Positions 146 to 51,885 of a DNA stretch of 52,468 nucleotides are shown piece after piece. The translations under genes were made by a program, and so were the position numbers. The stretch spans positions 1 to 52,468 of the forward strand of contig JAFUCZ010000035.1 of assembly GCA_017459425.1 (NCBI GenBank), in the 5' to 3' direction. The notes below the pieces were generated by a model that was not told where the DNA came from, ran no database searches, and was given only the letters and a program-made list of their open reading frames with translations. Numbering within the stretch: the stretch's first letter is position 1; every line of letters begins with the position of its first letter. Origin of the DNA: Bacilli bacterium. Its GTDB lineage: Bacteria; Bacillota_I; Bacilli_A; RF39; UBA660.

Positions 146-1387
146 TTATTGATTTTGATTAAAATTGTTTAAGATACCAAATGGATCAGGTATTGTATTG
201 TTTTCTTGTGTTGTTGGTGCTCCAAATGGATTTTCTACTGGAGCAGCTGGCGCTGGTTCTACACTTGGCATTCCAAACGGATTTTCTACTGGAGCTGCTG
301 GCGCTGGTTCTACACTTGGTGCTCCAAATGGATTTTCTACTGGAGCTGCTGGCGCAGGTTCTACACTTGGCATTCCAAACGGATTCTCTACTGGTGCTGC
401 TGGTGTTGGTTCTACACTTGGCATTCCAAATGGATTCTCTACTGGTGCAGCTGGCACTGGCTCTATACTTGGTGCTCCAAATGGATTTTCTACTGGAGTT
501 GCTGGCGTTGGTTCTACACTTGGTGCTCCAAATGGATTCTCTACTGGTGCTGCTGGCGATGGCTCTATACTTGGTGCTCCAAATGGATTTTCTACTGGTG
601 CTGCTGGCGATGGCTCTATACTTGGTGCTCCAAATGGATTCTCTACTGGTGCAGCTGGCGCTGGCTCTATACTTGGTGCCCCAAATGGGTTTTCTACTGG
701 AGCAGCTGGCACTGGCTCTACACTTGGTGCTCCAAATGGATTTTCTACTGGAGCAGTTGGCGTTGGTTCTACACTTGGTGCTCCAAATGGATTTTCTACT
801 GGTGCAGCTGGCACTGGCTCTACACTTGGTGCTCCAAATGGATTTTCTACTGGAGCAGTTGGCGTTGGTTCTACACTTGGTGCTCCAAATGGATTTTCTA
901 CTGGTGCAGCTGGTGTTTGCATATCATTTATATTTGTTGGTTGAATTGGTTTAAAATCAAACGCGTTATTTGTTATATTTTGTTCATTATTTTGCATATT
1001 ACTTCCTCCATTATTTGATTGTTGTTGGAAGCCAAAAGTATTTTGTCCTTCTTTTTCTTCGACCATACTTTGTACTTGTGCAGCATCTGGTATGTTAACC
1101 GAATTCAATGCTGGATTAACTGAATTAATTGGTTGTACACTTTCAACATTTTTTGTTGGTTCTACTGTTTGCATTTTTTCTTGTCTTTTTAATTTAGACG
1201 AAACTACAATTGCAGCAATAATATTTACAATTGGAATTATGCATAGTATTACCGGTTTTCCTCCTTTTTTAAAAATCCGATATGTTGTAAGAATTATTAA
1301 AACTCCTGTCAACGCTATCACAGCGATTCCACAATAATATACATAATCTGGCAATTCGCTTATTTTTTCTAATAAATTATCTACCAT
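146..1387 (-). CDS. Membrane-anchored protein with 14 x 17-residue NPFG repeats
   Basis: 413 aa. The start follows AAGGAG with good spacing. Two hydrophobic helices lie at about residues 17-37 and 44-63, joined by a basic loop (RIFKKGGK). The second resembles the K-P-x4-IIPIxN segment of DUF5684-type membrane proteins, also seen in the protein at 18537-19163. Residues 70-165 are a low-complexity Asn/Gln-rich linker. Residues ~165-400 are 14 copies of a 17-residue unit, core PVENPFG, followed by PSVEPxPA, with Ala/Met, Val/Ile and Thr/Ala/Ser/Val variation. The tail is Asn/Gln-rich. No enzymatic domain is visible. Which side of the membrane the repeats face is unclear, since both flanks of the second helix are basic. 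It could be a surface spacer or a multivalent binding scaffold. Function unknown. Confidence 0.8.
   Translation of the reverse strand: MVDNLLEKISELPDYVYYCGIAVIALTGVLIILTTYRIFKKGGKPVILCIIPIVNIIAAIVVSSKLKRQEKMQTVEPTKNVESVQPINSVNPALNSVNIPDAAQVQSMVEEKEGQNTFGFQQQSNNGGSNMQNNEQNITNNAFDFKPIQPTNINDMQTPAAPVENPFGAPSVEPTPTAPVENPFGAPSVEPVPAAPVENPFGAPSVEPTPTAPVENPFGAPSVEPVPAAPVENPFGAPSIEPAPAAPVENPFGAPSIEPSPAAPVENPFGAPSIEPSPAAPVENPFGAPSVEPTPATPVENPFGAPSIEPVPAAPVENPFGMPSVEPTPAAPVENPFGMPSVEPAPAAPVENPFGAPSVEPAPAAPVENPFGMPSVEPAPAAPVENPFGAPTTQENNTIPDPFGILNNFNQNQ
206..925 (-). repeat. 51-nt in-frame tandem repeat, 14 copies
   Basis: Near-identical 51-nt units (for example TCCAAATGG at 221 and TCCAAACGG at 272) encode the PVENPFG units of the protein at 146-1387. 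The unit length is a multiple of three, so copy number can change without frameshift. The repeat also keeps plus-strand frames open; those are shadows. Array length may vary between strains and could be mis-assembled from short reads. Confidence 0.9.
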
Positions 1388-7671: not shown

Positions 7672-7880
7672 TTTTAAAAAAAATTATTATGAAGTATAAG
7701 GACGAATAAATCGTGGTACCACCTTATTTCATAATAATTTCTATTATCTTAATACCTTAACGCGGTTATACGTCTTTATAGAAACTCCAAAGCAAGTTCA
7801 TAACTAGTTAATGAAAGTTTACACCAAAACACTTTCTCTCTTTAATTAACATCATTATTACTACTCTTCTTCAACGTCTT
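7672..7880 (-). promoter_or_regulatory. T-box leader, leucine-specific
   Basis: Minus-strand leader with the invariant T-box AAGGTGGTACCACG at 7712-7725. Downstream is an intrinsic terminator formed by AAATTATTATGAA...TAAGG pairing with CCTTA...TTCATAATAATTT and ending in a T run. Stem I elements include an AGAGAG bulge region and the GGTGTAAAC loop. In the specifier segment GAACTTGCTTTGGAG the codon CTT (7794-7796, Leu) is followed by a purine and a TTTGGA motif, the same arrangement as in the second T-box of this window. Uncharged tRNA-Leu should favour antitermination into the membrane-protein gene and leuS. Confidence 0.92.
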
Positions 7881-7887
7881 TTAAGAT

Positions 7888-7916
7888 ATTATATTACACT
7901 TGTTTAACATATTCAA
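7888..7916 (-). promoter_or_regulatory. Promoter of the leuS T-box transcript
   Basis: TTGAAT (7911-7916), a 17-nt spacer and TATAAT (7888-7893). The -35 and spacer lie inside the last codons of the GH31 gene, whose stop begins at 7894. Confidence 0.7.
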
Positions 7917-10293
7917 GTAATTTTAAGAATAATTTAACAAATTTTTTCTCTAAACCTTTTCTTTGGAGTTTTCGTATATTAATTCTTTTTTTATTAATTG
8001 GTAAATCACTAAACATTATTTCGTCAATCTTCATTTTCATCTCTGTTTCAATTTGTAAATCAGAAATAATTGATCCAATATCTTCGTTTATTAAACGAAC
8101 TGCATCTATTTCTATGTCTTTACCTTTACAGTTAAGTGTAAGTTGTCCATCTGTTCTAATATTTTTTGCTTCAACAACAAAATCTGTTCCATCAATATAT
8201 GATGTGCAATCAATTTTAGTTTCATTAAAGTATAAAATTACATCTTCTGCTTTTTTAGTATTTCTGAATCTAAATTTGTAATTTCTATTTTCAGGAACAA
8301 TATTACTTCTTCCCTCAACTGCCCTAATTATAACTGTGTAATTATTAGGCAAGTAGTTATAATCTATAGAAGTTACTAAATAAGATCCTTTTTCATACAT
8401 ATTTGTAACTCCGTCATCCTCATATAAATTATAAGTATTGCTGTGGCCAGGAAAAATTTGTATTTCTAGATTCTTCGGAACATTTGTATCATTTATATTT
8501 TCGTTATCACCAAAGACTAAAATTGAACCACTTTTTGCGAATACTGGATAATCTTCATCGTTGAAAAATGATACATACGCTCTCCCTCCAGGAAATTTTT
8601 TACCTGTGAAAAAATCATACCATACACCATCTGGAACAAAAAACTTGTGTATTACTCTATTCATAATATATTCTTTTTTCTTTAAAATAGGTGCGACAAA
8701 TAATTCAGATCCAAAATAGTATTCATTTCTATAATTTACATCATCATAAAATTCTTTATAGTTATAATATAATGGTTTTATAATTGGTTTACCATATTTA
8801 TAATATTTGTAACTTTCAGTATATAAATATGGGATTAATTTGTGACGTAAAGTTAAATAATCCTTTACTATTGTATAAGTTTTTATTCCCCATCTCCAAG
8901 GTTCTCTTTTATAATACTTTCCACTATCACAACCAAGTTTCATAATCGGACTGAATGTACCTAATTGAATAAACCTTGTATACAATTCATTATCTTCAAC
9001 ACCTTTATAAAATCCACCTATATCATGTGCCCAAAATGATACACCATTATTTACCGCCATATTGTTAAAATATGGAATTAGTTTTAAAGTATCCCATCCA
9101 ACTATTGTTTTACCAGAATATAATACGGGATATCTATGTGTTACTAATGATGAATTTCTAGATAAAGTCATTGGTCTTTTGTTAAAATCTTTTTTTGTAT
9201 CTAAAAAGTGATAATGATTTAATCTTCCTAAATTCATTCTATCACTTATATTATCATAATCTAAGAAATAAAAATCTACTCCCATGTTATCAAGGGGATG
9301 TATTAACATCTTAAAATAAACATCTAATGTTTTATAATCAAGAACATCAAAAGGTATTACGCCATTCTTATCAGGCGCTAAATATTTTTTCATTTGTTCA
9401 TAGTATTCTTCAAAATCATAAAATCCTTCAAAAGGGTTTATTGATAGTCCCATATGAATATTTACTTTATGCATATAATTTATCATGCTACTAGGATATT
9501 TAAAGTAATTCTTATTCCACGTAAAACCTGTTGTAATATTATTTTTCACGTTTCTTAAATGCCAATCATGACTTAATAACAAAATAGATACAGGTATATG
9601 TTTTTCATTAAATTTATCAACTAATCCTTTTAATTTTAAATCATCGTAAGCTGTATCTCTACTCCACCAATTTCCAAGTGCATATCTAGGTATTAATGCT
9701 GGATATCCAGTTATATTAAAGTAATCATTTAAGCATCCTTCAAAATCATTCATATACATGAATACATAAATATCAATTTCAGAATTAGTTCGTTCATTTA
9801 AGCACCCATTTTCATCAAATACATATGAATTAGAATCATCTAAACTTGTAAAACCATCTGGAGAATATAATCCTTTATCATAATTTTTATTATTGTTATC
9901 AAGTGAATAACCAGGAGATCTATAATTTCTAGCTTCTGGATGATTATAATACCAAAATTTTTGTGTATTTAATAAATCTATTTTCAAATTTTTTGTTTGA
10001 TTAAAACTAGTGCCAGCAAACTTTCTTTCTTTTTCATATGTTAATTTAAAAAAGCTAGTTGTAATAATTAAATATTTATCATCTTCCTGAGCTTCAAATG
10101 CCACCGGTTCCATATTACGATTTAGAACTATTTGTGTTGGGGCATCAGTAAATTTACCATTCCCACTATATTCTAGACGTATTAGTCTTTCGCTTAGTAC
10201 TGTAAATCTAAAAAATTTACCCTGAACAATATTTTTAGGATTTGCTAATGCATTACTCATATTTATTTTGAATTGTTCACCTAAATTATACAT
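7894..10293 (-). CDS. GH31-family glycosidase homologue with altered acid/base position
   Basis: 799 aa. Layout fits GH31 alpha-glycosidases: an N-terminal beta-sandwich (~1-190), a (beta/alpha)8 barrel (~200-530), C-terminal beta-sandwiches and a helical tail after ~720. The nucleophile strand is GVDFYFLDYDN, with D345 as the probable nucleophile. FWAHDIGGF and the YTRFIQLGTFSPIMK segment are classic GH31. The general acid/base Asp normally lies in an SGDT/GGDC-like motif before HDIGG; here the aligned motif is YSGKT, with K395 in its place. No signal peptide, so probably cytosolic. It follows the pyruvate-kinase homologue by 8 nt. It may be inactive, act by a changed mechanism, or act on an activated substrate. 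Substrate unknown. Confidence 0.85.
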   Translation of the reverse strand: MYNLGEQFKINMSNALANPKNIVQGKFFRFTVLSERLIRLEYSGNGKFTDAPTQIVLNRNMEPVAFEAQEDDKYLIITTSFFKLTYEKERKFAGTSFNQTKNLKIDLLNTQKFWYYNHPEARNYRSPGYSLDNNNKNYDKGLYSPDGFTSLDDSNSYVFDENGCLNERTNSEIDIYVFMYMNDFEGCLNDYFNITGYPALIPRYALGNWWSRDTAYDDLKLKGLVDKFNEKHIPVSILLLSHDWHLRNVKNNITTGFTWNKNYFKYPSSMINYMHKVNIHMGLSINPFEGFYDFEEYYEQMKKYLAPDKNGVIPFDVLDYKTLDVYFKMLIHPLDNMGVDFYFLDYDNISDRMNLGRLNHYHFLDTKKDFNKRPMTLSRNSSLVTHRYPVLYSGKTIVGWDTLKLIPYFNNMAVNNGVSFWAHDIGGFYKGVEDNELYTRFIQLGTFSPIMKLGCDSGKYYKREPWRWGIKTYTIVKDYLTLRHKLIPYLYTESYKYYKYGKPIIKPLYYNYKEFYDDVNYRNEYYFGSELFVAPILKKKEYIMNRVIHKFFVPDGVWYDFFTGKKFPGGRAYVSFFNDEDYPVFAKSGSILVFGDNENINDTNVPKNLEIQIFPGHSNTYNLYEDDGVTNMYEKGSYLVTSIDYNYLPNNYTVIIRAVEGRSNIVPENRNYKFRFRNTKKAEDVILYFNETKIDCTSYIDGTDFVVEAKNIRTDGQLTLNCKGKDIEIDAVRLINEDIGSIISDLQIETEMKMKIDEIMFSDLPINKKRINIRKLQRKGLEKKFVKLFLKLLEYVKQV

Positions 10294-10301
10294 AGTATCA
10301 C

Positions 10302-11723
10302 CTATTCATTAAAATCTTCAATTTTCATAAAATTGGTATATTTTGTGGTTTTAAATGGATAGCCCCCGGTTATTATTATTCTATCATCTATATCAATATC
10401 AAAAAGTGATAATGCAACCCCTTTTGACTCATTCATCATTTTATCAAAAGTTTTTAATTCTTGAATAAATACTGGATAAATTCCAAAATAAATGTTTAAA
10501 TTTTTTATAGTATTTATATCTGGTGAAAGAGCTAATATTGGACAACTCGGTCTAAATCTGCTTATTTTTTTTGCTGTTTGTCCACTGATTGTAGGAGTAA
10601 CTATCGTTTTACATTTCAATCTGTTAGCTGTTTCTACTACACTAATTGCAATACAACCTGTTGTATCTATGCTTTCAGATCTTATTGCTTTATCTAATAA
10701 ATCAATATAATTTATATCATGTTCTGATGCATGTATAATTCTCTCAATTGTTTTTAGAGTATCTACAGGAAACTTACCTATTGTTGTCTCACCACTTAAA
10801 ATAATTGCATCTACTCCATCAATAACTGCATTTGCTACATCACTTACCTCAGCTCTCGTTGGACTTGAACTATTTTCCATTGATGATAAAATTTGAGCAG
10901 CAACTATGCTTACTTTACCTACATTATGACATTTACTTACTATTGATTTTTGAATTCCTGGAACTCTCTCAAGTGGTACTTCAGCACCTAAATCACCTCT
11001 AGATACTATAATACCGTCACTTACTTTTATTATTTCATCTATAAATTCTACGCCTTTTTCATTTTCTATTTTTGCAATTATTCCTAAATGATCATTACCA
11101 AGTTCTATAAGCATGTCATTTACTAAAAGAACATCTTCCGATGAAGTAACACCAGAAAGCGCTAAAAAATCTACATTCATTTCATGTGCAAATACAATAT
11201 TTTTTTTATCATTTTCACTTAAAAAAGGAATATTTAATTTTGAATCTGGAACGTTTACTATAGATTTATCATAAACAATTCCTTCTTTTACAACTGTACA
11301 AGTTAAATAATTTGAATCTTTATCTGTAATTTCTAATTGAACTGCTCCATTATTTAATTTTATTACATCATGACATTTAACGTCATCAATAAATCCGAAA
11401 TAATTAACAGAAAATGTAGTACAATCACCTATAACAGGTGTTTTGCTAACCCTTACTGTTTCACCTAATTTAAAGTATGCAGATCCACCTTGAAAATTAA
11501 AAGTTCTAACATGTGGTCCTTCTATATCAAGCATTATAGAAATGTTTTTTTTCATTTCGTAATTTAATTCATCTATAATTGAAATAATTTTTTTACAAAA
11601 ATCATATGAGCAAAAAGCCATATTTAATCTTATTATATCTACGCCATTTATAAAAAATTGTCTTAATGTATCCTTATCTTGGCTTGCTGGACCAACTGTA
11701 GCTATTATTTTTGTTTTATTCAT
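10302..11723 (-). CDS. Divergent pyruvate kinase homologue
   Basis: 473 aa, full length for pyruvate kinase, with the TIM barrel interrupted by the B domain (~72-165) and a C-terminal regulatory domain. Retained: R32, N34, AKIEN with K218 and E220, RGDLG with D244, and the PTRAEVSDVANA segment. Changed from the usual family motifs: LNFSHG reads LNMAF (A36), LDTKGPEIRT reads LDIEGPHVRT (I67, E68, H71), DDG reads NNG (124-126), and ATQML reads AAQIL (A276 for the conserved Thr). These include potassium-site and catalytic-site positions. It may be a paralogue with altered activity or cofactor need rather than the housekeeping enzyme; the gene symbol is therefore withheld. Operonic with the GH31 homologue downstream. 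Confidence 0.85.
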   Translation of the reverse strand: MNKTKIIATVGPASQDKDTLRQFFINGVDIIRLNMAFCSYDFCKKIISIIDELNYEMKKNISIMLDIEGPHVRTFNFQGGSAYFKLGETVRVSKTPVIGDCTTFSVNYFGFIDDVKCHDVIKLNNGAVQLEITDKDSNYLTCTVVKEGIVYDKSIVNVPDSKLNIPFLSENDKKNIVFAHEMNVDFLALSGVTSSEDVLLVNDMLIELGNDHLGIIAKIENEKGVEFIDEIIKVSDGIIVSRGDLGAEVPLERVPGIQKSIVSKCHNVGKVSIVAAQILSSMENSSSPTRAEVSDVANAVIDGVDAIILSGETTIGKFPVDTLKTIERIIHASEHDINYIDLLDKAIRSESIDTTGCIAISVVETANRLKCKTIVTPTISGQTAKKISRFRPSCPILALSPDINTIKNLNIYFGIYPVFIQELKTFDKMMNESKGVALSLFDIDIDDRIIITGGYPFKTTKYTNFMKIEDFNE

Positions 11724-16524: not shown

Positions 16525-17466
16525 ATGAAAAAAAGAAAAATTAAAAAAATTCCATTTATTATTACAATAGTAATAATTATATTAGTATTTGTTATTTCAT
16601 TTAAGATAGTTCAAACCATAAAATATCACAATACATATGATTATAAATTATCACAATTAAATTATACGGAAAAAGAAATTAAAAACATAAAAAAATTAAG
16701 TGATAAAAAAATTGATGAAATTCTAAAAAAAGATAAAATTGAAATATTATCTGACATAATTGTGCAAAAATATTTTTTGGAAAAAAATTTAAATACGTAT
16801 ATTAATTATTATAATGAAAACAAAGATAAAAAACTAAATGATATTATAGCCATAGTAAATGTAGGAGCTAATAATGAACCATATTCAAATACAAAAAAAG
16901 CTGATACTACAAAAAATGAATTGATTTTAGTAAATAAATACTATTATTTAGATAATACATTTATTCCTGAAGGAGTTATTGATGCCCCATTAAGTCTAGC
17001 ATTTGATGACAATCAAACTACTGAATTAGTACTAGAAAAATTTAAAGAAATGGCACTTGCTGCTGACGAAGAAGATTTAACTTTAATTATTAACTCAGGG
17101 TATAGGCCTTATGAATATCAGGAAGAATTATACAGTGAATATGAAGCACGTGATGGTGTTGAAGGCGCTGATTCATATGCAGCTCGTCCAGGACATTCTG
17201 AGCATCAAACAGGATTAGCAATTGACATAATTACTTACGGTGCTAAAAATAATAGTTTTGATCAAACAGATGAATTTAAGTGGCTAGATCAAAATGCTCA
17301 CAAATATGGTTTTATTTTAAGATACCCTAAAGATAAAACTTATTTAACTGGTTATGATTATGAATCATGGCATTTCAGATATGTGGGTATTGATGCTGCA
17401 ACTAAAATTAAAAAATTAGGAATTACATTTGATGAATATTATGCATATTTTATAGAGAATAAATAG
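16525..17466 (+). CDS. VanY-like D-Ala-D-Ala carboxypeptidase 1 (peptidase M15B)
   Basis: 313 aa. A very basic N-terminus (MKKRKIKK) and one hydrophobic helix (~10-28) anchor the enzyme. Residues ~40-150 are an unrecognised extension. The M15B domain carries SGYRPYEYQEELY, then the zinc motif SEHQTGLAID with H227 and D234, and YESWHFRYVG with E280 and H283. All expected metal and catalytic positions are present. Enzymes of this family cleave terminal D-Ala from peptidoglycan peptides or precursors. No VanR/S or ligase genes are nearby, so a wall-remodelling role is more likely than glycopeptide resistance. A paralogue follows at once. Confidence 0.92.
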   Translation: MKKRKIKKIPFIITIVIIILVFVISFKIVQTIKYHNTYDYKLSQLNYTEKEIKNIKKLSDKKIDEILKKDKIEILSDIIVQKYFLEKNLNTYINYYNENKDKKLNDIIAIVNVGANNEPYSNTKKADTTKNELILVNKYYYLDNTFIPEGVIDAPLSLAFDDNQTTELVLEKFKEMALAADEEDLTLIINSGYRPYEYQEELYSEYEARDGVEGADSYAARPGHSEHQTGLAIDIITYGAKNNSFDQTDEFKWLDQNAHKYGFILRYPKDKTYLTGYDYESWHFRYVGIDAATKIKKLGITFDEYYAYFIENK

Positions 17467-17487
17467 TTAATTTTAACTATTTTTTTC
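17461..17487 (+). terminator. Intrinsic terminator between the VanY genes
   Basis: AAATAGTTAA / TTAACTATTT stem followed by T4-7 on the plus strand. It contains the stop codon of the first VanY gene (17464-17466). Confidence 0.8.
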
Positions 17488-17508
17488 ATATATTTTAGTG
17501 GTGATAAT

Positions 17509-18162
17509 ATGAAAAAAATATATAGTTTTATTTTACTTGTTGTCATCATTATTTTATTTTTTAGAGATTGTAGTATTAAAAAAAAAGAAATAAATATAAT
17601 ATCAAATCCAAATTCTTTGGATGTTTTAGTAAATAAATTTAATAAATTAAATAGTGAATATATACCCAGTGATTTAATACTAATGCCACTAAAAAACTCC
17701 AATAAAGATAAATATTTAAGAAAAGAAGCTGCAGATAATTTTATTAAATTAAGTAATGATGCTTCCCTTTTAAACTATAAAATAATTATTGCTTCAGCAT
17801 ATAGAAGTTATGAATATCAAACTAATCTATATGATGACTATAAAGAAAAATATGATTTCAAATATACTTCTAGTTGTTGTGCACAAGCAGGTTTTTCTGA
17901 ACACCAAACAGGTCTTGCAATTGATGTAATGGGTTCAAATAACGATTACCACAAGTTTGATGAATCGCAAGAGTTTAATTGGATGATAAATAATTGTTAT
18001 AAATATGGTTTTATTTTAAGATACCCCAAAGGAAAAGAAAAAATAACTGGGTTTAAATATGAACCATGGCATTATAGATATGTAGGAGTGAAACTAGCAA
18101 TTTTTTTGCACCAAAAAAATATAACACTTGAAGAATATCATAAAAAAAAAGAGATTAAATAA
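17509..18162 (+). CDS. VanY-like D-Ala-D-Ala carboxypeptidase 2 (peptidase M15B)
   Basis: 217 aa, a shorter paralogue of its neighbour lacking most of the N-terminal extension. N-terminal hydrophobic anchor at ~4-19, followed by RDCSIKKK, which is not a good lipobox. Catalytic region: SAYRSYEYQTNLYDDY, SEHQTGLAID with H132 and D139, and EPWHYRYVG with E185 and H188. Long stretches match the first copy nearly exactly (YKYGFILRYPK, SEHQTGLAIDV), supporting local gene duplication. It has a distinct Cys pair (SSCCAQAG) ahead of the zinc motif. GGTGAT precedes the start. Confidence 0.9.
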   Translation: MKKIYSFILLVVIIILFFRDCSIKKKEINIISNPNSLDVLVNKFNKLNSEYIPSDLILMPLKNSNKDKYLRKEAADNFIKLSNDASLLNYKIIIASAYRSYEYQTNLYDDYKEKYDFKYTSSCCAQAGFSEHQTGLAIDVMGSNNDYHKFDESQEFNWMINNCYKYGFILRYPKGKEKITGFKYEPWHYRYVGVKLAIFLHQKNITLEEYHKKKEIK

Positions 18163-20561: not shown

Positions 20562-20592
20562 AAAGAAAATAGATTTGTAAAATACAAATCTA
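20562..20592 (-). terminator. Intrinsic terminator of the HerA-like gene
   Basis: Perfect 10-bp stem TAGATTTGTA / TACAAATCTA (20570-20592) followed by TTTTCTTTT. It contains the stop codon at 20590-20592. Confidence 0.85.
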
Positions 20593-22344
20593 TCTAACTC
20601 TCCAAGTATCCATAACATCACAGTTGCTACTAGATGGTTCAGGATTTGGCATTTGCATCCTAATTAACATTGGCACTTTAAATGCTTTACCAAACGCTAC
20701 ACAAGTACCAGGTTGAAGTGATTTTTGTTTTTCAACAACTTCAGCACTGATATTTGGAAGCATTTTTTTAATATAGTCTATATCTCTTGGATGGGTCATT
20801 TTAAATATAATAAAGTTACTGATTTGTGAAATAACTGTATCAGAAATTTCAACAGGTCTTTGGCTAATTAAGTCTAAAATTATACCATACTTACGACCTT
20901 CTTTAGCAACCCTTTCAAAAATATTATATCCAAGTAAATATTTATCATTATCGTTTTGTACATATCTATGACATTCTTCTAGGAATACATGAAAAGGAAT
21001 TGTTGCTCTATTAGGAAGTGATTTGGCAAATCCAAATAACATTTTTGTATAAACCTTACATAATACTTTTGCGAATGAATCATCAATATCTTCTAAATTA
21101 AAATTGATAATTTGAGCTTTACTATTTCCACCATAAGAAACAAGGCTTGCAATATAATTATCCCTAGTAATATATTCAGGATATCTTAAGAATTTATTAG
21201 TTTCACCTATTGTTATTGAATGAAGTCTTACTTTTAATGTAATTGCATTATTATAAGCTTTATCATTACGAAGTAGTCCTTCAGAAATTAAAGTAAAATC
21301 AAGAGCTTTTTCTAGATCTTCTAAAGTATAATAATTATCTGCAGTTGCCTCATATTTATCTAACTCATCATTAATAAATTTTGAAATATATTCAGTTAAT
21401 AAAACACTTTCAGAAAAATTACCGTTTGAATCTATTGTAAAACATTCTCTAAATTTTCTAGTATATCCAATTCCTTGAACAGGTGCTTCTAAGTTAAATT
21501 CTTCAGTTGAACAACTTGCAAGTATTGAAAATGCATCATTTCTTTTAGCAGAAGCAGTTTGATTTGTATATAAAATTGTCATTATTGCTTTTGCAATCAA
21601 ATGATTTTTATAATCTCTTGATACTTCATCAGGTTGAGAAAAAATCTTAACAAGTTTTAACATTCTTTCAATTATTGTAAGTTGTGAATGTTCCCCGGCA
21701 TCTAATAAAAGAGCCATGTCATCAGTATCAAGTAACCATATTGGAAGTCTTAGTCTTTCACCATCTGTATCAGTTTCATTAGTTGTATAGTATTTAAAGT
21801 GGAAATTTGGATTTATATTTTCAATAACTTTAAATGCATTATGATATTCTCCATATGCATCAAATATAAAAAAATTTGATCTATATGGCAAAATATTAGG
21901 ATCACTAAATACATTTTGAAGTATTCTTGCTACTCCACACGATTTACCACTACCACTATTTCCAAAAACAGCTAAATGGTTACTAAACAAATCATTAACA
22001 TCAATATAAATTGGACAATTATCATATAATGGAGAATAACCAAGTAACATATTTCCATCTTTTTGTGATCCAACTATTAAAGCTAATTCCTCCTGAGTTA
22101 TTATTCTAATAACTGAATTTAATGTTGGTTTTCTAATAACCCCTCCAACAAAATGGCCATCAACTATTTCCCCTTGAAATCTTATTTTAATAATTTCTTG
22201 TCCAATATCTTCAACTTCACCAAGTATTTTTTTCTTGTCATCTTCAAAAATAACATGCATATTCATTAAGTTTGTAGAAACTTCACTATTACCAACTTGT
22301 ACATGTGCTTCATTATCACTAATATACACTATTTTACCAAACAT
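20590..22344 (-). CDS. HerA-like (DUF87) ATPase
   Basis: 584 aa. An N-terminal beta-barrel like the HAS-barrel of HerA (~1-75) is followed by a FtsK/HerA-type ATPase. Walker A GNSGSGKS is at residues 128-135, preceded by SNHLAVF and followed by FFIFDAYGEYHNAF. Walker B is near residue 456 in VFLEECHRYV, then EGRKYGIILDLISQRPVEI, a motif of HerA/VirB4-like ATPases. HerA proteins are hexameric DNA translocases usually paired with NurA or with defence effectors, but no nuclease gene is adjacent. It lies between ylxM and ffh, so a housekeeping role or chance insertion are both possible. Confidence 0.85.
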   Translation of the reverse strand: MFGKIVYISDNEAHVQVGNSEVSTNLMNMHVIFEDDKKKILGEVEDIGQEIIKIRFQGEIVDGHFVGGVIRKPTLNSVIRIITQEELALIVGSQKDGNMLLGYSPLYDNCPIYIDVNDLFSNHLAVFGNSGSGKSCGVARILQNVFSDPNILPYRSNFFIFDAYGEYHNAFKVIENINPNFHFKYYTTNETDTDGERLRLPIWLLDTDDMALLLDAGEHSQLTIIERMLKLVKIFSQPDEVSRDYKNHLIAKAIMTILYTNQTASAKRNDAFSILASCSTEEFNLEAPVQGIGYTRKFRECFTIDSNGNFSESVLLTEYISKFINDELDKYEATADNYYTLEDLEKALDFTLISEGLLRNDKAYNNAITLKVRLHSITIGETNKFLRYPEYITRDNYIASLVSYGGNSKAQIINFNLEDIDDSFAKVLCKVYTKMLFGFAKSLPNRATIPFHVFLEECHRYVQNDNDKYLLGYNIFERVAKEGRKYGIILDLISQRPVEISDTVISQISNFIIFKMTHPRDIDYIKKMLPNISAEVVEKQKSLQPGTCVAFGKAFKVPMLIRMQMPNPEPSSSNCDVMDTWRVR

Positions 22345-45950: not shown

Positions 45951-48038
45951 TTACTCCTTTCTTATACTTTTATGTCCTTTGATTAATTTTTGTATTCCGG
46001 TTGGATGTGGGAATGCCACGGTAAGAATTTTATCCTCTACTGTAATAATAACTCCGCTTCCAAATTTTTCATGCACGATATGATCGCCTGGTTTATATTC
46101 TAAGGATTTGTCAACCATCTTACTAAAATCTGTTTTAGGAGTTATTTTTGATTTTATTTCATCTTGTTCTATTAAATCACTACTTATTTCATTTATAAAT
46201 CTACTAGGTTGATTCACATAATCCATTCCATATAATAATCTTTTTCTAGCATTTGTTAGATATAGAGTTTTTTTTGCTCTAGTTATTGCAACATAGCAAA
46301 GTCTTCTTTCTTCTTCTAATTGTTCACTTTCTAAAAAAGAATTTTTATGTGGAAATACACCTTCTTCTAAACCTATCATAAATACAGTATCAAACTCTAA
46401 TCCCTTTGCTGAATGAACAGTCATAAGTGTTATTACATCATTATTATCCTTATGTTCTTCTATATCTGATACTAAACTTATTTCATATAAAAATTCTTCT
46501 AATGATATTATACCATTTTTTTCTTCGAATGAACGTGTTATTGATTTAAATTCTTCCAAATTTTCTAATCTAATTTCTGACTCTATTGTTTTCTCACTTA
46601 GTAATTCCTGTTTTATACCTGTTTTTTCTAGAACGTAATCGATCAATTCAGTAAGTGAATGTTTTAAATCATACTCTATGAAGTCAAAAATCATGTTTTT
46701 AAATTCTAATTCTTTACCTTTTTCAATCGATTCAAAAAGTGATTTATTATTTGCTGTAGCATTATCTTGTATTTTTTCAATAGTTTTAGTTCCTATACCT
46801 CGTTTTGGTACATTTAATACTCTAAGTAAGCTTATATCATCTTTTGCATTATGTATTAGTTTTAAATATGCTATTAAATCTTTTATTTCTTTTCTATTGT
46901 AAAAATAAAAGCTTCCTACAACTCTATAAGGTATATTATCTTTTAATAAGTATTCTTCCATTAAACGTGATTGAGCGTTTGTTCTATAAAGAATTGCTAT
47001 TTCATCTTTAGGTATGCCTTGATTAATTAATTTCAATACTTCTTTTGTAACGTATTCCGCTTCATCTTTTTCATCAAAGCATCTATGATATTTCAATTTT
47101 GTACCATTTTCATTTTGAGTCCATAATTTTTTCTCTTTTCGTAATTTATTATTTTTTATAACATCATTAGCTGCATTTAAAATATTTTTTGTTGATCTAT
47201 AATTTTCTTCTAGCATTATTACTTTTGCGTTTTTATAGTCTCTTTCAAAATTAAGTATATTTTTATAATTCGCGCCTCTCCATGAATATATAGATTGATC
47301 TGAATCTCCTACAACACAAATGTTTTTATTTTTTGAACTTATTAATTTTGATAATTTATATTGTGCTTCATTTGTATCTTGGTATTCATCAATTAATACG
47401 TATTTATATCTATCTTGATACACTTCTAAAATATCTTTATGTTCTAAGAATAAATTTATCGGTAGTTTTAATAAGTCATCAAAATCAATTGAGTTACTTC
47501 GTATCAATTTGTTTTGATATTTTTGATATATTTTAACAACTATTTTTTCGAATTCAGTTTGAGCGAATTTTTCGTATGTATTTGGATCCATTAATTCGTT
47601 TTTCGCACCACTAATAATATTTTTTATAGTTTTAGGGTTAAATTGTTTAGGATCTAGATTTTCTTCTTTGAGTATTTTTTTTATAATTGTTAGTGAGTCA
47701 TCACTATCAATTATTGTGAAGTTTTTTTCATAGCCAAGTATATGTCCATATTCTTTTAATATTAGAAGTCCAAATGAATGGAATGTTGATATTTGGATTT
47801 TATATGCTTTAGATCCTAAAATTGAAATCATTCTATCTTTCATTTCACGAGCTGCTTTATTTGTAAATGTTATTGCTAGGATACTTCCAGGATTGATTCC
47901 TACTTCATCAATTAAATAGGCTACTCTATTTGTTAAAACTGTTGTTTTACCACTTCCAGCACCTGCAACTATTAATATTGGACCATTTACTGTCTTAATA
48001 GCTTGTACTTGTTGTTCATTTAATTTACTTAAGTCCAT
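45951..48038 (-). CDS. pcrA: UvrD/Rep-family DNA helicase PcrA
   Basis: 695 aa. Superfamily 1 motifs: Walker A AGAGSGKTTVL (about 25-35), ITFTNKAAREM, Walker B VLIDEYQDTN, DSDQSIYSWRGAN, LEENYRS, MTVHSAKGLEFDTVF, and EEERRLCYVAITRA. Slightly shorter than Bacillus PcrA. The C-terminus ends with YKPGDHIVHEKFGSGVI, the Tudor-like RNAP-interacting region. It unwinds DNA 3'-5' in repair and removes stalled RNAP. Confidence 0.96.
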   Translation of the reverse strand: MDLSKLNEQQVQAIKTVNGPILIVAGAGSGKTTVLTNRVAYLIDEVGINPGSILAITFTNKAAREMKDRMISILGSKAYKIQISTFHSFGLLILKEYGHILGYEKNFTIIDSDDSLTIIKKILKEENLDPKQFNPKTIKNIISGAKNELMDPNTYEKFAQTEFEKIVVKIYQKYQNKLIRSNSIDFDDLLKLPINLFLEHKDILEVYQDRYKYVLIDEYQDTNEAQYKLSKLISSKNKNICVVGDSDQSIYSWRGANYKNILNFERDYKNAKVIMLEENYRSTKNILNAANDVIKNNKLRKEKKLWTQNENGTKLKYHRCFDEKDEAEYVTKEVLKLINQGIPKDEIAILYRTNAQSRLMEEYLLKDNIPYRVVGSFYFYNRKEIKDLIAYLKLIHNAKDDISLLRVLNVPKRGIGTKTIEKIQDNATANNKSLFESIEKGKELEFKNMIFDFIEYDLKHSLTELIDYVLEKTGIKQELLSEKTIESEIRLENLEEFKSITRSFEEKNGIISLEEFLYEISLVSDIEEHKDNNDVITLMTVHSAKGLEFDTVFMIGLEEGVFPHKNSFLESEQLEEERRLCYVAITRAKKTLYLTNARKRLLYGMDYVNQPSRFINEISSDLIEQDEIKSKITPKTDFSKMVDKSLEYKPGDHIVHEKFGSGVIITVEDKILTVAFPHPTGIQKLIKGHKSIRKE

Positions 48039-49900: not shown

Positions 49901-50564
49901 TAATGAACATATAAGTTATTTAAAAAAAATCAGATTTAATAAAATATTAATTAAGTTAATTCAAATATCAATTTTTATTATATTTTTAATAGTATGGCAG
50001 CTGCTTGCTGATTTTAAAGTAATTAATACATTTGTATCTTCGAGTCCAAAAGAAGTATTTAAGACTATTATTGAACTTCATAAAACAAATAATTTATATA
50101 ATCATATTTTTATTACGTTATATGAAACAGTATTAAGTTTCTTAATTGGAACATTAATTGGTATATTTTTAGCAACTATTTTATGGTGGAATAAGTTTAT
50201 TGCTAAAGTTGTAGATCCATATTTAACAATACTAAATAGCCTTCCAAAAGTAGCTCTTGGACCAATAATAATAATTTGGGTAGGTGCGAAAATGAATTCT
50301 ATTATTTTAATGGCTTTATTTATTTCTACAATTATAACTATTATGAATGTTTATCAAGGCTTTATAGAAACAGATATTAATAAAATAAAGTTAATGAAAT
50401 CTTTTAATGCTAAACCATATCAAATGTTTTTTAAATTGGTTTTACCTAGTAGCTTCCCAAATATTATAAGTGCACTTAAAATAAATTTAAGTATGTCATT
50501 AGTTGGACTATTACCCCCGGTGGGAGAAAAAATATTTTTTAATAAATGTTATAGTAGATATTGA
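49893..50564 (+). pseudogene. ABC importer permease, 3' end cut by an integrated element
   Basis: Reading frame of 223 codons. Native sequence runs to about codon 205 (49893-50507): helices at ~19-40, 73-95, 102-125, 128-150, and the EAA loop FNAKPYQMFFKLVLPSSFPNI, then LSMSLVG. In related permeases this continues VIVGEF and two more helices. Here the frame runs into unrelated sequence and ends antisense to the recombinase gene. The C-terminal ~40-50 residues are missing, so importer function is doubtful unless the fusion works or the element excises. AAGGAG precedes its ATG, which overlaps the ATPase gene by 8 nt. Confidence 0.75.
50490..50540. other. Putative attL of the integrated element
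   Basis: The permease sequence departs from its family after codon GGA at 50505-50507. The next 31 nt, up to the recombinase stop at 50539-50541, contain the near-palindrome CCCCCGGTGGG, unusual in this AT-rich context. The crossover dinucleotide cannot be fixed without the empty site. Confidence 0.45.
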
Positions 50565-51885
50565 TTTCATTATCATTTACTATAACTTTGTCTATTAAGT
50601 GCTCAATGATTCTTCTTTGTTCATCAAAGTCCATATCAAACCAAGTTGCTTTTAAGTTCTTAATCATATTTAAAGATACTTTGTTATCTTTTTCTTTTTG
50701 TTCTGATTCAATCAATTTTTCTTCTATAGTTTCTTTTTCTTTTTCTAATTCATTTATTTTTTTATTAGTTTCTTCCACAGCTATACCACTTGCTATATTA
50801 TTTAATAGATTATTTATTTGTTTTGTTATTTCTTCAAGTCTTGTTCTATATTCATTTTTTACATTGACAGTTGCTATATTAAATGTCTTCTTAAATAAAT
50901 CTAAATCTAGACTCATTTTAAATAATTCTTCTAATACTGCATCCTCAACTTCAAATGTATCCCACCTTTTATTATTACAATTAGGATCTTTAATATATCT
51001 TGGTTTACTTTTTTGTTGTGAATAACAATACATTATTAATCTTTTTCCCCATTTTTGATATCTATATTTGGCTCCACAATGTCCACAAAATACTTTTCCA
51101 GATAGTAAATAATGTCTTTCATACTTTTCACGACTTCTAACTTTATTTACTCTTAATATTTCTTCATAAAGTTCATCAGATACTACTGCTTCATGTTGTC
51201 CATCATAAACTTCATCCTTATATGGAACTTTACCAGTATTAGTTATGGATAGTATTCTAGTTTCAACCATTGATTCATCCATTCCAACAATTTTACCAAT
51301 AACATTAAAACTTTTACCACTAATATAAAGTGAAATCATTTTATGAAGTAATTCTACTTGTTCTGGAATTGGTATTAATGTTCCTGTATTTCTATCATAA
51401 CGATAAGGAAATGGTATTTTACCTCCGCCTCTCCAAAGACCTGCTTCAGCTCGTTTTTTAAGTCCTATACGAGTTCTTTCTAATATTGTTTCTCTTTCAA
51501 GTTGAGCAAATACTGATAGTACACCAATCATAGCTTTACCAAATGGTGTTGATGTATCAAAGTTCTCTCTCATTGAAATAAAACTAACATTATATTTATT
51601 AAATACTTCTTCAATTAAATATAATGTATCTCTCTGGCTTCTTGATATTCTATCTAACTTAAATACAAATACAGCATCAATTTTATGATTTTTACAATCT
51701 TCAATTAATTTCTGAATTGCTGGTCTATTTAAATCTTTACCAGAATATCCACCATCAATATAGTATTCAAACTCTGTATAGTCTTTACTTTTTGCATAAC
51801 TTAACAAAAATTCTTTTTGGGCATCTATTGAATATCCTTCAAGTTGGCTGTCGGTAGAAACTCTTGCATATAATCCCGCTTTTAT
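50539..51885 (-). CDS. Large serine recombinase (site-specific integrase)
   Basis: 448 codons if read from an ATA at 51883-51885. Resolvase domain: LYARVSTDSQLEGYSI with catalytic S10, then YIDGGYSGKDLNRPAI, VFVFKLDRISRSQRD and FAQLERETILERT. The recombinase domain (~150-260), zinc ribbon (CGHCGAKYRY ... YCYS) and a coiled coil (~350-410) follow. There is no ATG, GTG or TTG between the in-frame stop TAA (51898-51900) and S10; the first canonical start is TTG at 51805-51807, which would drop the catalytic Ser. GGAGGAG sits 5 nt before ATA. Either ATA is used as start or the gene is weakened by an ATG-to-ATA change. Confidence 0.88.
   Translation of the reverse strand: MKAGLYARVSTDSQLEGYSIDAQKEFLLSYAKSKDYTEFEYYIDGGYSGKDLNRPAIQKLIEDCKNHKIDAVFVFKLDRISRSQRDTLYLIEEVFNKYNVSFISMRENFDTSTPFGKAMIGVLSVFAQLERETILERTRIGLKKRAEAGLWRGGGKIPFPYRYDRNTGTLIPIPEQVELLHKMISLYISGKSFNVIGKIVGMDESMVETRILSITNTGKVPYKDEVYDGQHEAVVSDELYEEILRVNKVRSREKYERHYLLSGKVFCGHCGAKYRYQKWGKRLIMYCYSQQKSKPRYIKDPNCNNKRWDTFEVEDAVLEELFKMSLDLDLFKKTFNIATVNVKNEYRTRLEEITKQINNLLNNIASGIAVEETNKKINELEKEKETIEEKLIESEQKEKDNKVSLNMIKNLKATWFDMDFDEQRRIIEHLIDKVIVNDNEINIYYNIY

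Follow-up and report, generated by a model that had tools for sequence, protein, structure and literature searches.

The pyruvate kinase (PK) homologue encoded at positions 10302-11723 of the window, the whole 52,468-nt stretch of contig JAFUCZ010000035.1 analysed here, keeps the residues assigned to PEP and metal binding but has lost several on the cation and nucleotide side of the active site. It belongs to a clade (clade II; the window protein is called PK-II) in which each gene is directly followed by one for a GH31-like protein, itself devoid of the catalytic acid/base Asp. We give an even chance to the reading that the window protein is a pseudo-PK, forming with this GH31-like protein a two-gene unit with a sensing or scaffolding role.

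Active-site residues of the PK homologue

10302..11723, minus strand: PK homologue (clade II, PK-II), 473 aa; active-site replacements S36A, H37F, T67I, K68E, E71H, F191G and T276A (canonical residue first)
11613..11618, minus strand: A36 and F37 codons, where canonical PKs have the cation-ligand Ser and the His of LNFSH
11511..11525, minus strand: codons I67-H71, I-E-G-P-H (canonical T-K-G-P-E)
10896..10898, minus strand: codon A276 (canonical Thr of ATQM)

The ORF, whose coordinates were already correct in the first-pass annotation and which lies on the minus strand, spans both PK domains at full length (Pfam PK, PF00224, 292.5 bits; PK_C, PF02887, 99.1 bits). It scores 447.9 bits against TIGR01064 (cut-off 306.4), and its top solved relative is the G. 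stearothermophilus PK 2e28. An AlphaFold model built from four sequences is of moderate quality (pLDDT 69.9); Foldseek ranks PKs first among its relatives, and the model may be taken to confirm the PK fold only.

The numbering was verified along the motifs R32 L33 N34 M35 A36 F37 C38, D66 I67 E68 G69 P70 H71 V72 R73 T74, N124 N125 G126, K218 I219 E220, R242 G243 D244 and A275 A276 Q277. The substitutions first reported for this protein (LNMAF, DIEGPHVRT, NNG and AAQIL) are real and correctly numbered: A36, I67, H71 and A276 stand where PKs carry Ser, Thr, Glu and Thr. His37 to Phe, Gly38 to Cys and the Phe of ASFV to Gly191 had been overlooked. Residues R32, N34, D66, R73, K218, E220 and D244 are unchanged. 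Among them R32, K218, E220 and D244, whose retention had been rightly pointed out, are those known from pyruvate kinases in general to bind PEP and the metal; the H37 and R73 positions are likewise assigned to the nucleotide side. The C-domain phosphate-loop motif is present as T-I-S-G-Q-T-A. At the positions of the cation Ser36, His37 and the ATQM Thr, which are kept in all 63 canonical enzymes of clade I described below (S or T at 36), the window protein has A36, F37 and A276, and overall it lacks 4 of 11 core residues. An alignment artefact is ruled out, as the substitutions lie in ungapped motifs and clade II is stable when those columns are removed.

Not all the reported changes carry the same weight. 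DDG to NNG was discounted as a sign of divergence, since the Asp is found in just 38% of the intact clade-I enzymes. T67I was also discounted, because the corresponding Thr113 contacts K+ through its backbone carbonyl (PMC4284704). PK-II resembles pyruvate kinase (EC 2.7.1.40; PF00224 + PF02887, TIGR01064) in its A, B and C domains, its R32/K218/E220/D244 set and its C-domain loop. It differs in the replaced cation Ser, nucleotide-side His, GPE Glu and ATQM Thr, and in having a fixed GH31-like partner.

A clade of PK homologues eroding at the cation and nucleotide side

PKs from 145 genomes of the same GTDB family (one per genus), three more MAGs and two solved PKs were aligned. Trees were built with FastTree and, after removal of the active-site columns, with IQ-TREE; both gave the same two clades, which are well supported. 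Clade I comprises 63 canonical sequences and clade II 42, including the window PK (IQ-TREE support 100/99); 14 others are intermediate. The divergent group to which the protein had been suspected to belong is therefore a coherent clade, and the window PK shares with it the GH31-like gene directly downstream.

Diversity is similar in the two clades (mean pairwise identity 0.55 in clade I and 0.53 in clade II), yet all 63 clade-I sequences keep 11 of 11 core residues; the losses in the window PK are therefore more than chance. Within clade II, S36 is intact in 65% of the sequences, H37 in 52%, E/D71 in 50% and R73 in 60%, compared with 100% in clade I. R32 (95%), K218 (98%), E220 (93%) and D244 (93%) are conserved, with N34 and D66 in the same 93-98% range, and the C-domain loop T-x-S-G-x-T-A is largely kept (its T, G and T in 42 of 42). 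A few members (L140, L153 and L149) have lost metal ligands too. Mapped on the tree, the eroding sites changed state at least 11 (S36), 10 (H37), 9 (E71) and 8 (R73) times, so that clade II has lost the cation Ser, the nucleotide-side His and Arg and the GPE acid many times independently. The replacements share no new consensus, which points to lost constraint at these sites and not to a new catalytic motif.

Clade II may not be uniformly dead. Eight members, each the sole PK found in its own genome (MAG gaps can hide a second PK), retain all 11 core residues and might be genuine PKs. Of 23 clade-II copies in genomes with a clade-I enzyme (PK-I), 22 lack one core residue or more; of 16 in genomes without it, 8 do (Fisher p 0.0015). 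A link between erosion and a coexisting PK-I is suggested by the Fisher test only, as the tree offers just 6 independent supported pairs, among which the association is not significant.

The first-pass annotation had considered an altered cofactor use. In K+-independent PKs, Lys117 is accompanied by L113, Q114 and (L,I,V)120 (PMC8835810). The window protein resembles these enzymes in its non-Glu residue at position 117 and its hydrophobic residue at 113, but the four positions read H71, I67, E68 and T74, with Glu in place of Gln at 114 and Thr at 120. The K+-dependent signature, E117 with T113/K114/T120, is matched by T74 alone. PK-II could nevertheless be a working isozyme with altered cation or effector use, in which H71 provides a positive charge near the cation site like Lys117. 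Nothing is lost among the PEP and metal residues or at R73, half of the clade-II enzymes found as sole PKs are complete, and enzymes with Lys117 do not need K+ for activity (PMC4374775, PMC8835810). We consider this isozyme unlikely: PK-II has lost more active-site residues than the active Lys117 enzymes, the positions of H37, F191 and T276 being replaced too although they are kept in 63 of 63 clade-I enzymes; the residues that go with Lys117, L113/Q114/(L,I,V)120, are missing; and the genome already encodes a canonical PK and a PPDK. Moreover, clade II shows no consistent replacement at the signature positions, and H37 and R73 erode as well. Altered K+ use is thus a weaker reading than that of a pseudo-PK.

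A GH31-like partner without its acid/base residue

7894..10293, minus strand: GH31-like protein (GH31_u1 type), 799 aa, 8 bp past the PK stop; retains the nucleophile D345 but has K395 in place of the acid/base Asp
9109..9111, minus strand: codon for the Lys (K395) of the GH31-like protein that aligns with Asp394, the catalytic acid/base of LlGH31_u1
7695..7883, minus strand: T-box leader (RF00230), between the GH31 gene and the genes for a 117-aa membrane protein and LeuRS

The context that lay beyond the reach of the first-pass annotation is an invariant partner gene whose product likewise lacks a catalytic residue. A GH31-like gene is the next gene downstream, on the same strand, at 42 of 42 clade-II loci. 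This holds for none of the 77 loci with a clade-I or intermediate PK, 71 of which have a called downstream ORF. In the window 8 bp separate the two genes; at 33 of the 42 loci the gap falls within 8-32 nt. The T-box leader that intervenes before the genes for the membrane protein and LeuRS suggests that the PK-GH31 pair is a transcription unit of its own, and these two genes were discounted as operon members. Another Rfam match, n00280 (sRNA included in helicase gene; 46243-46342, minus strand), is barely over its gathering score and lies within an ORF (45951-48038).

The closest solved relative of the window GH31-like protein is the alpha-1,3-glucosidase LlGH31_u1 (PDB 7WJ9; 376 bits). The two proteins share the same barrel and the nucleophile, D345 aligning with Asp341, but K395 of the window protein takes the place of Asp394, and every lineage member read is non-Asp at this position. 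The D394A mutant of LlGH31_u1 is described as inactive (PMC9061262). Besides the 42 operon partners, the non-Asp state extends to 24 lineage loci without an adjacent PK-II (L220-L239, L272-L275), and Lys is the residue found in most partners. In other families of the class, every one of 14 relatives (L257-L265, L267-L271) has the Asp, and no PK lies beside any of these 14 GH31 genes.

Of 288 genomes sampled in the order, 254 contain the GH31-like gene, and 7894-10293 is the only GH31 found in the window genome. In the order, a GH31_u1-like protein lacking the acid/base Asp is therefore near-universal, a finding of its own whether or not PK-II is present. PK-II, which many genera with the GH31-like gene lack, is the accessory partner. 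With LeuRS as control, PK-II and GH31 distances correlate beyond what LeuRS accounts for (18 loci, partial r 0.42, partial Mantel p 0.024). Finally, in two species of one genus (g47; L072 2544-5419 in G046 and L185 in G274), a canonical PK-I lies directly upstream of an eroded PK-II, followed by the GH31-like gene, all on one strand.

The window holds several other features. A 51-bp tandem repeat of 13.7 copies (214-913) lies within a 413-aa ORF (146-1387, minus strand) without a Pfam match and overlapped by long ORFs on the opposite strand. Two VanY-type D,D-carboxypeptidase genes stand side by side at 16525-18162 (plus strand). A HerA-like ATPase is encoded at 20590-22344 (minus strand), with matches to the NCBIfam anti-phage HerA models far under their cut-offs, and a serine recombinase with a resolvase domain and a zinc ribbon at 50539-51807 (minus strand), close to the window end.

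Canonical PK and PPDK in the genome and the family

The window assembly (1.09 Mb, 85.6% complete) encodes on another contig a second PK, with the canonical motifs RVNFSH, DTKGPDLRT, KIET, RGDL and ATEM, which falls in clade I. The window protein is thus a paralogue, as had been proposed, and not the only pyk of its genome. The family has more than 20 genomes with both PK types, which makes a binning artefact unlikely. PPDK, which interconverts PEP and pyruvate, is also encoded in the window genome. Among the 145 genomes of the family, 94 have a PK and 51 have none, while 129 have a PPDK_N match. PK activity is dispensable in this Bacilli family because PPDK is present. Finding a divergent copy as the only pyk of some other genome would for the same reason not be decisive, given the widespread PPDK and the 51 genomes without a PK. 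A paper on RF39-type Bacilli reports ppdK as frequent and leaves pyruvate kinase unmentioned (PMC7301438).

Selection on clade II

In 20 congeneric clade-II pairs (NG86, dS 0.3-1.3), dN/dS ranges from 0.03 to 0.23, similar to the values for the GH31 partner in the same genera; the window genus is represented by a single genome and lies outside these pairs. Catalytic residues have thus been lost under purifying selection in clade II, among relatives of the window PK. Reading frames are open, except in contig-edge cases and in G064, where the N-terminal part of PK-II (L138 4554-5777) is out of frame although its congener G194 is open; this disruption is either decay or an assembly error.

These values bear on the possibility that PK-II is a redundant gene in slow decay, dispensable once PK-I and PPDK are present, with a drifting active site and lineage-by-lineage gene loss. 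The losses without a shared pattern, their higher frequency beside PK-I (with the caveat of the 6 pairs), the G064 frame and the many genera without PK-II would all be accounted for. Such a decay is rather improbable in our view, as it sits badly with the low dN/dS, with the otherwise open frames, with a PK-GH31 order kept in 42 of 42 loci, and with a nucleotide side that drifts while the metal site, the barrel and the C-domain loop stay fixed. A kept scaffold, PEP/metal site and C-domain loop, a drifting cation and nucleotide side, purifying selection and a fixed gene pair are together what is expected of a binding or scaffolding pseudoenzyme. Pseudoenzymes in general show the same combination of a fold under selection and lost catalytic residues (PMC10211241).

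A possible role for the gene pair

As a pseudo-PK, PK-II would retain the PK fold, the pocket for PEP and the divalent metal (R32, K218, E220, D244) and the C-domain phosphate-loop motif. With parts of the cation and nucleotide side lost, it probably transfers phosphoryl groups to ADP very poorly or not at all, as judged from the residues. The protein is predicted to bind PEP and metal still, and perhaps a sugar phosphate. Its partner would retain the GH31 barrel and the nucleophile Asp with the acid/base Asp gone. The likely function is then to sense a ligand or to serve as a scaffold: PEP and/or a sugar phosphate, once bound to PK-II, would tune the GH31-like protein; in some genera PK-II perhaps tunes the canonical PK too. 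What counts against the pseudo-PK reading is that clade II may not be uniformly dead, that replacements without a consensus would also fit simple relaxation, that many genera with the GH31-like gene lack PK-II, and that the structure model is of moderate quality. Among the options raised by the first-pass annotation, the best fit is a different role involving PEP, or that of a regulator; its reading as a divergent paralogue holds, and altered cofactor use does not find good support.

A catalytic alternative was also weighed. PK-II could have become a new enzyme that works without a nucleotide, using the pyruvate-enolate and metal chemistry that it has in common with HpcH/HpaI-type aldolases. 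It might then act in the same pathway as a GH31 variant whose substrate is an activated or phosphorylated sugar. The metal-binding Glu and Asp and the PEP Arg and Lys are kept while the nucleotide side is lost, the barrel has a weak NCBIfam match to the GarL aldolase (E 6e-5), and most GH31 partners have Lys at the acid/base position. However, no new conserved catalytic residues stand in for the lost ones, and the window protein lacks the Thr at 276. A new catalyst is therefore very unlikely.

Returning to the pseudo-PK, a more specific proposal can be made, tentatively: the two enzyme look-alikes, a pseudo-PK that binds PEP or a sugar phosphate and a GH31-like protein without acid/base that is almost always present in an uncultured Bacilli lineage with reduced genomes, may form a metabolite-responsive complex through which the state of glycolysis would bear on sugar binding or on an altered processing of sugars. 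A search of the open-access literature returned no described bacterial pseudo-PK or inactive PK paralogue directly on point, no pair of PK-like and GH31-like pseudoenzymes, and no acid/base-less GH31 directly on point.

Significance

Clade-II proteins are labelled "pyruvate kinase" by automated annotation, TIGR01064 being easily passed. Metabolic models of uncultured Bacilli would thus credit these organisms with a glycolytic step that many clade-II proteins probably do not perform. The invariant GH31-like neighbour, whose acid/base residue is lost lineage-wide, provides a concrete and testable partner. Clade II itself ranges by natural steps from sole PKs that are intact to copies without metal ligands, and so lends itself to the study of how a glycolytic enzyme becomes a pseudoenzyme.
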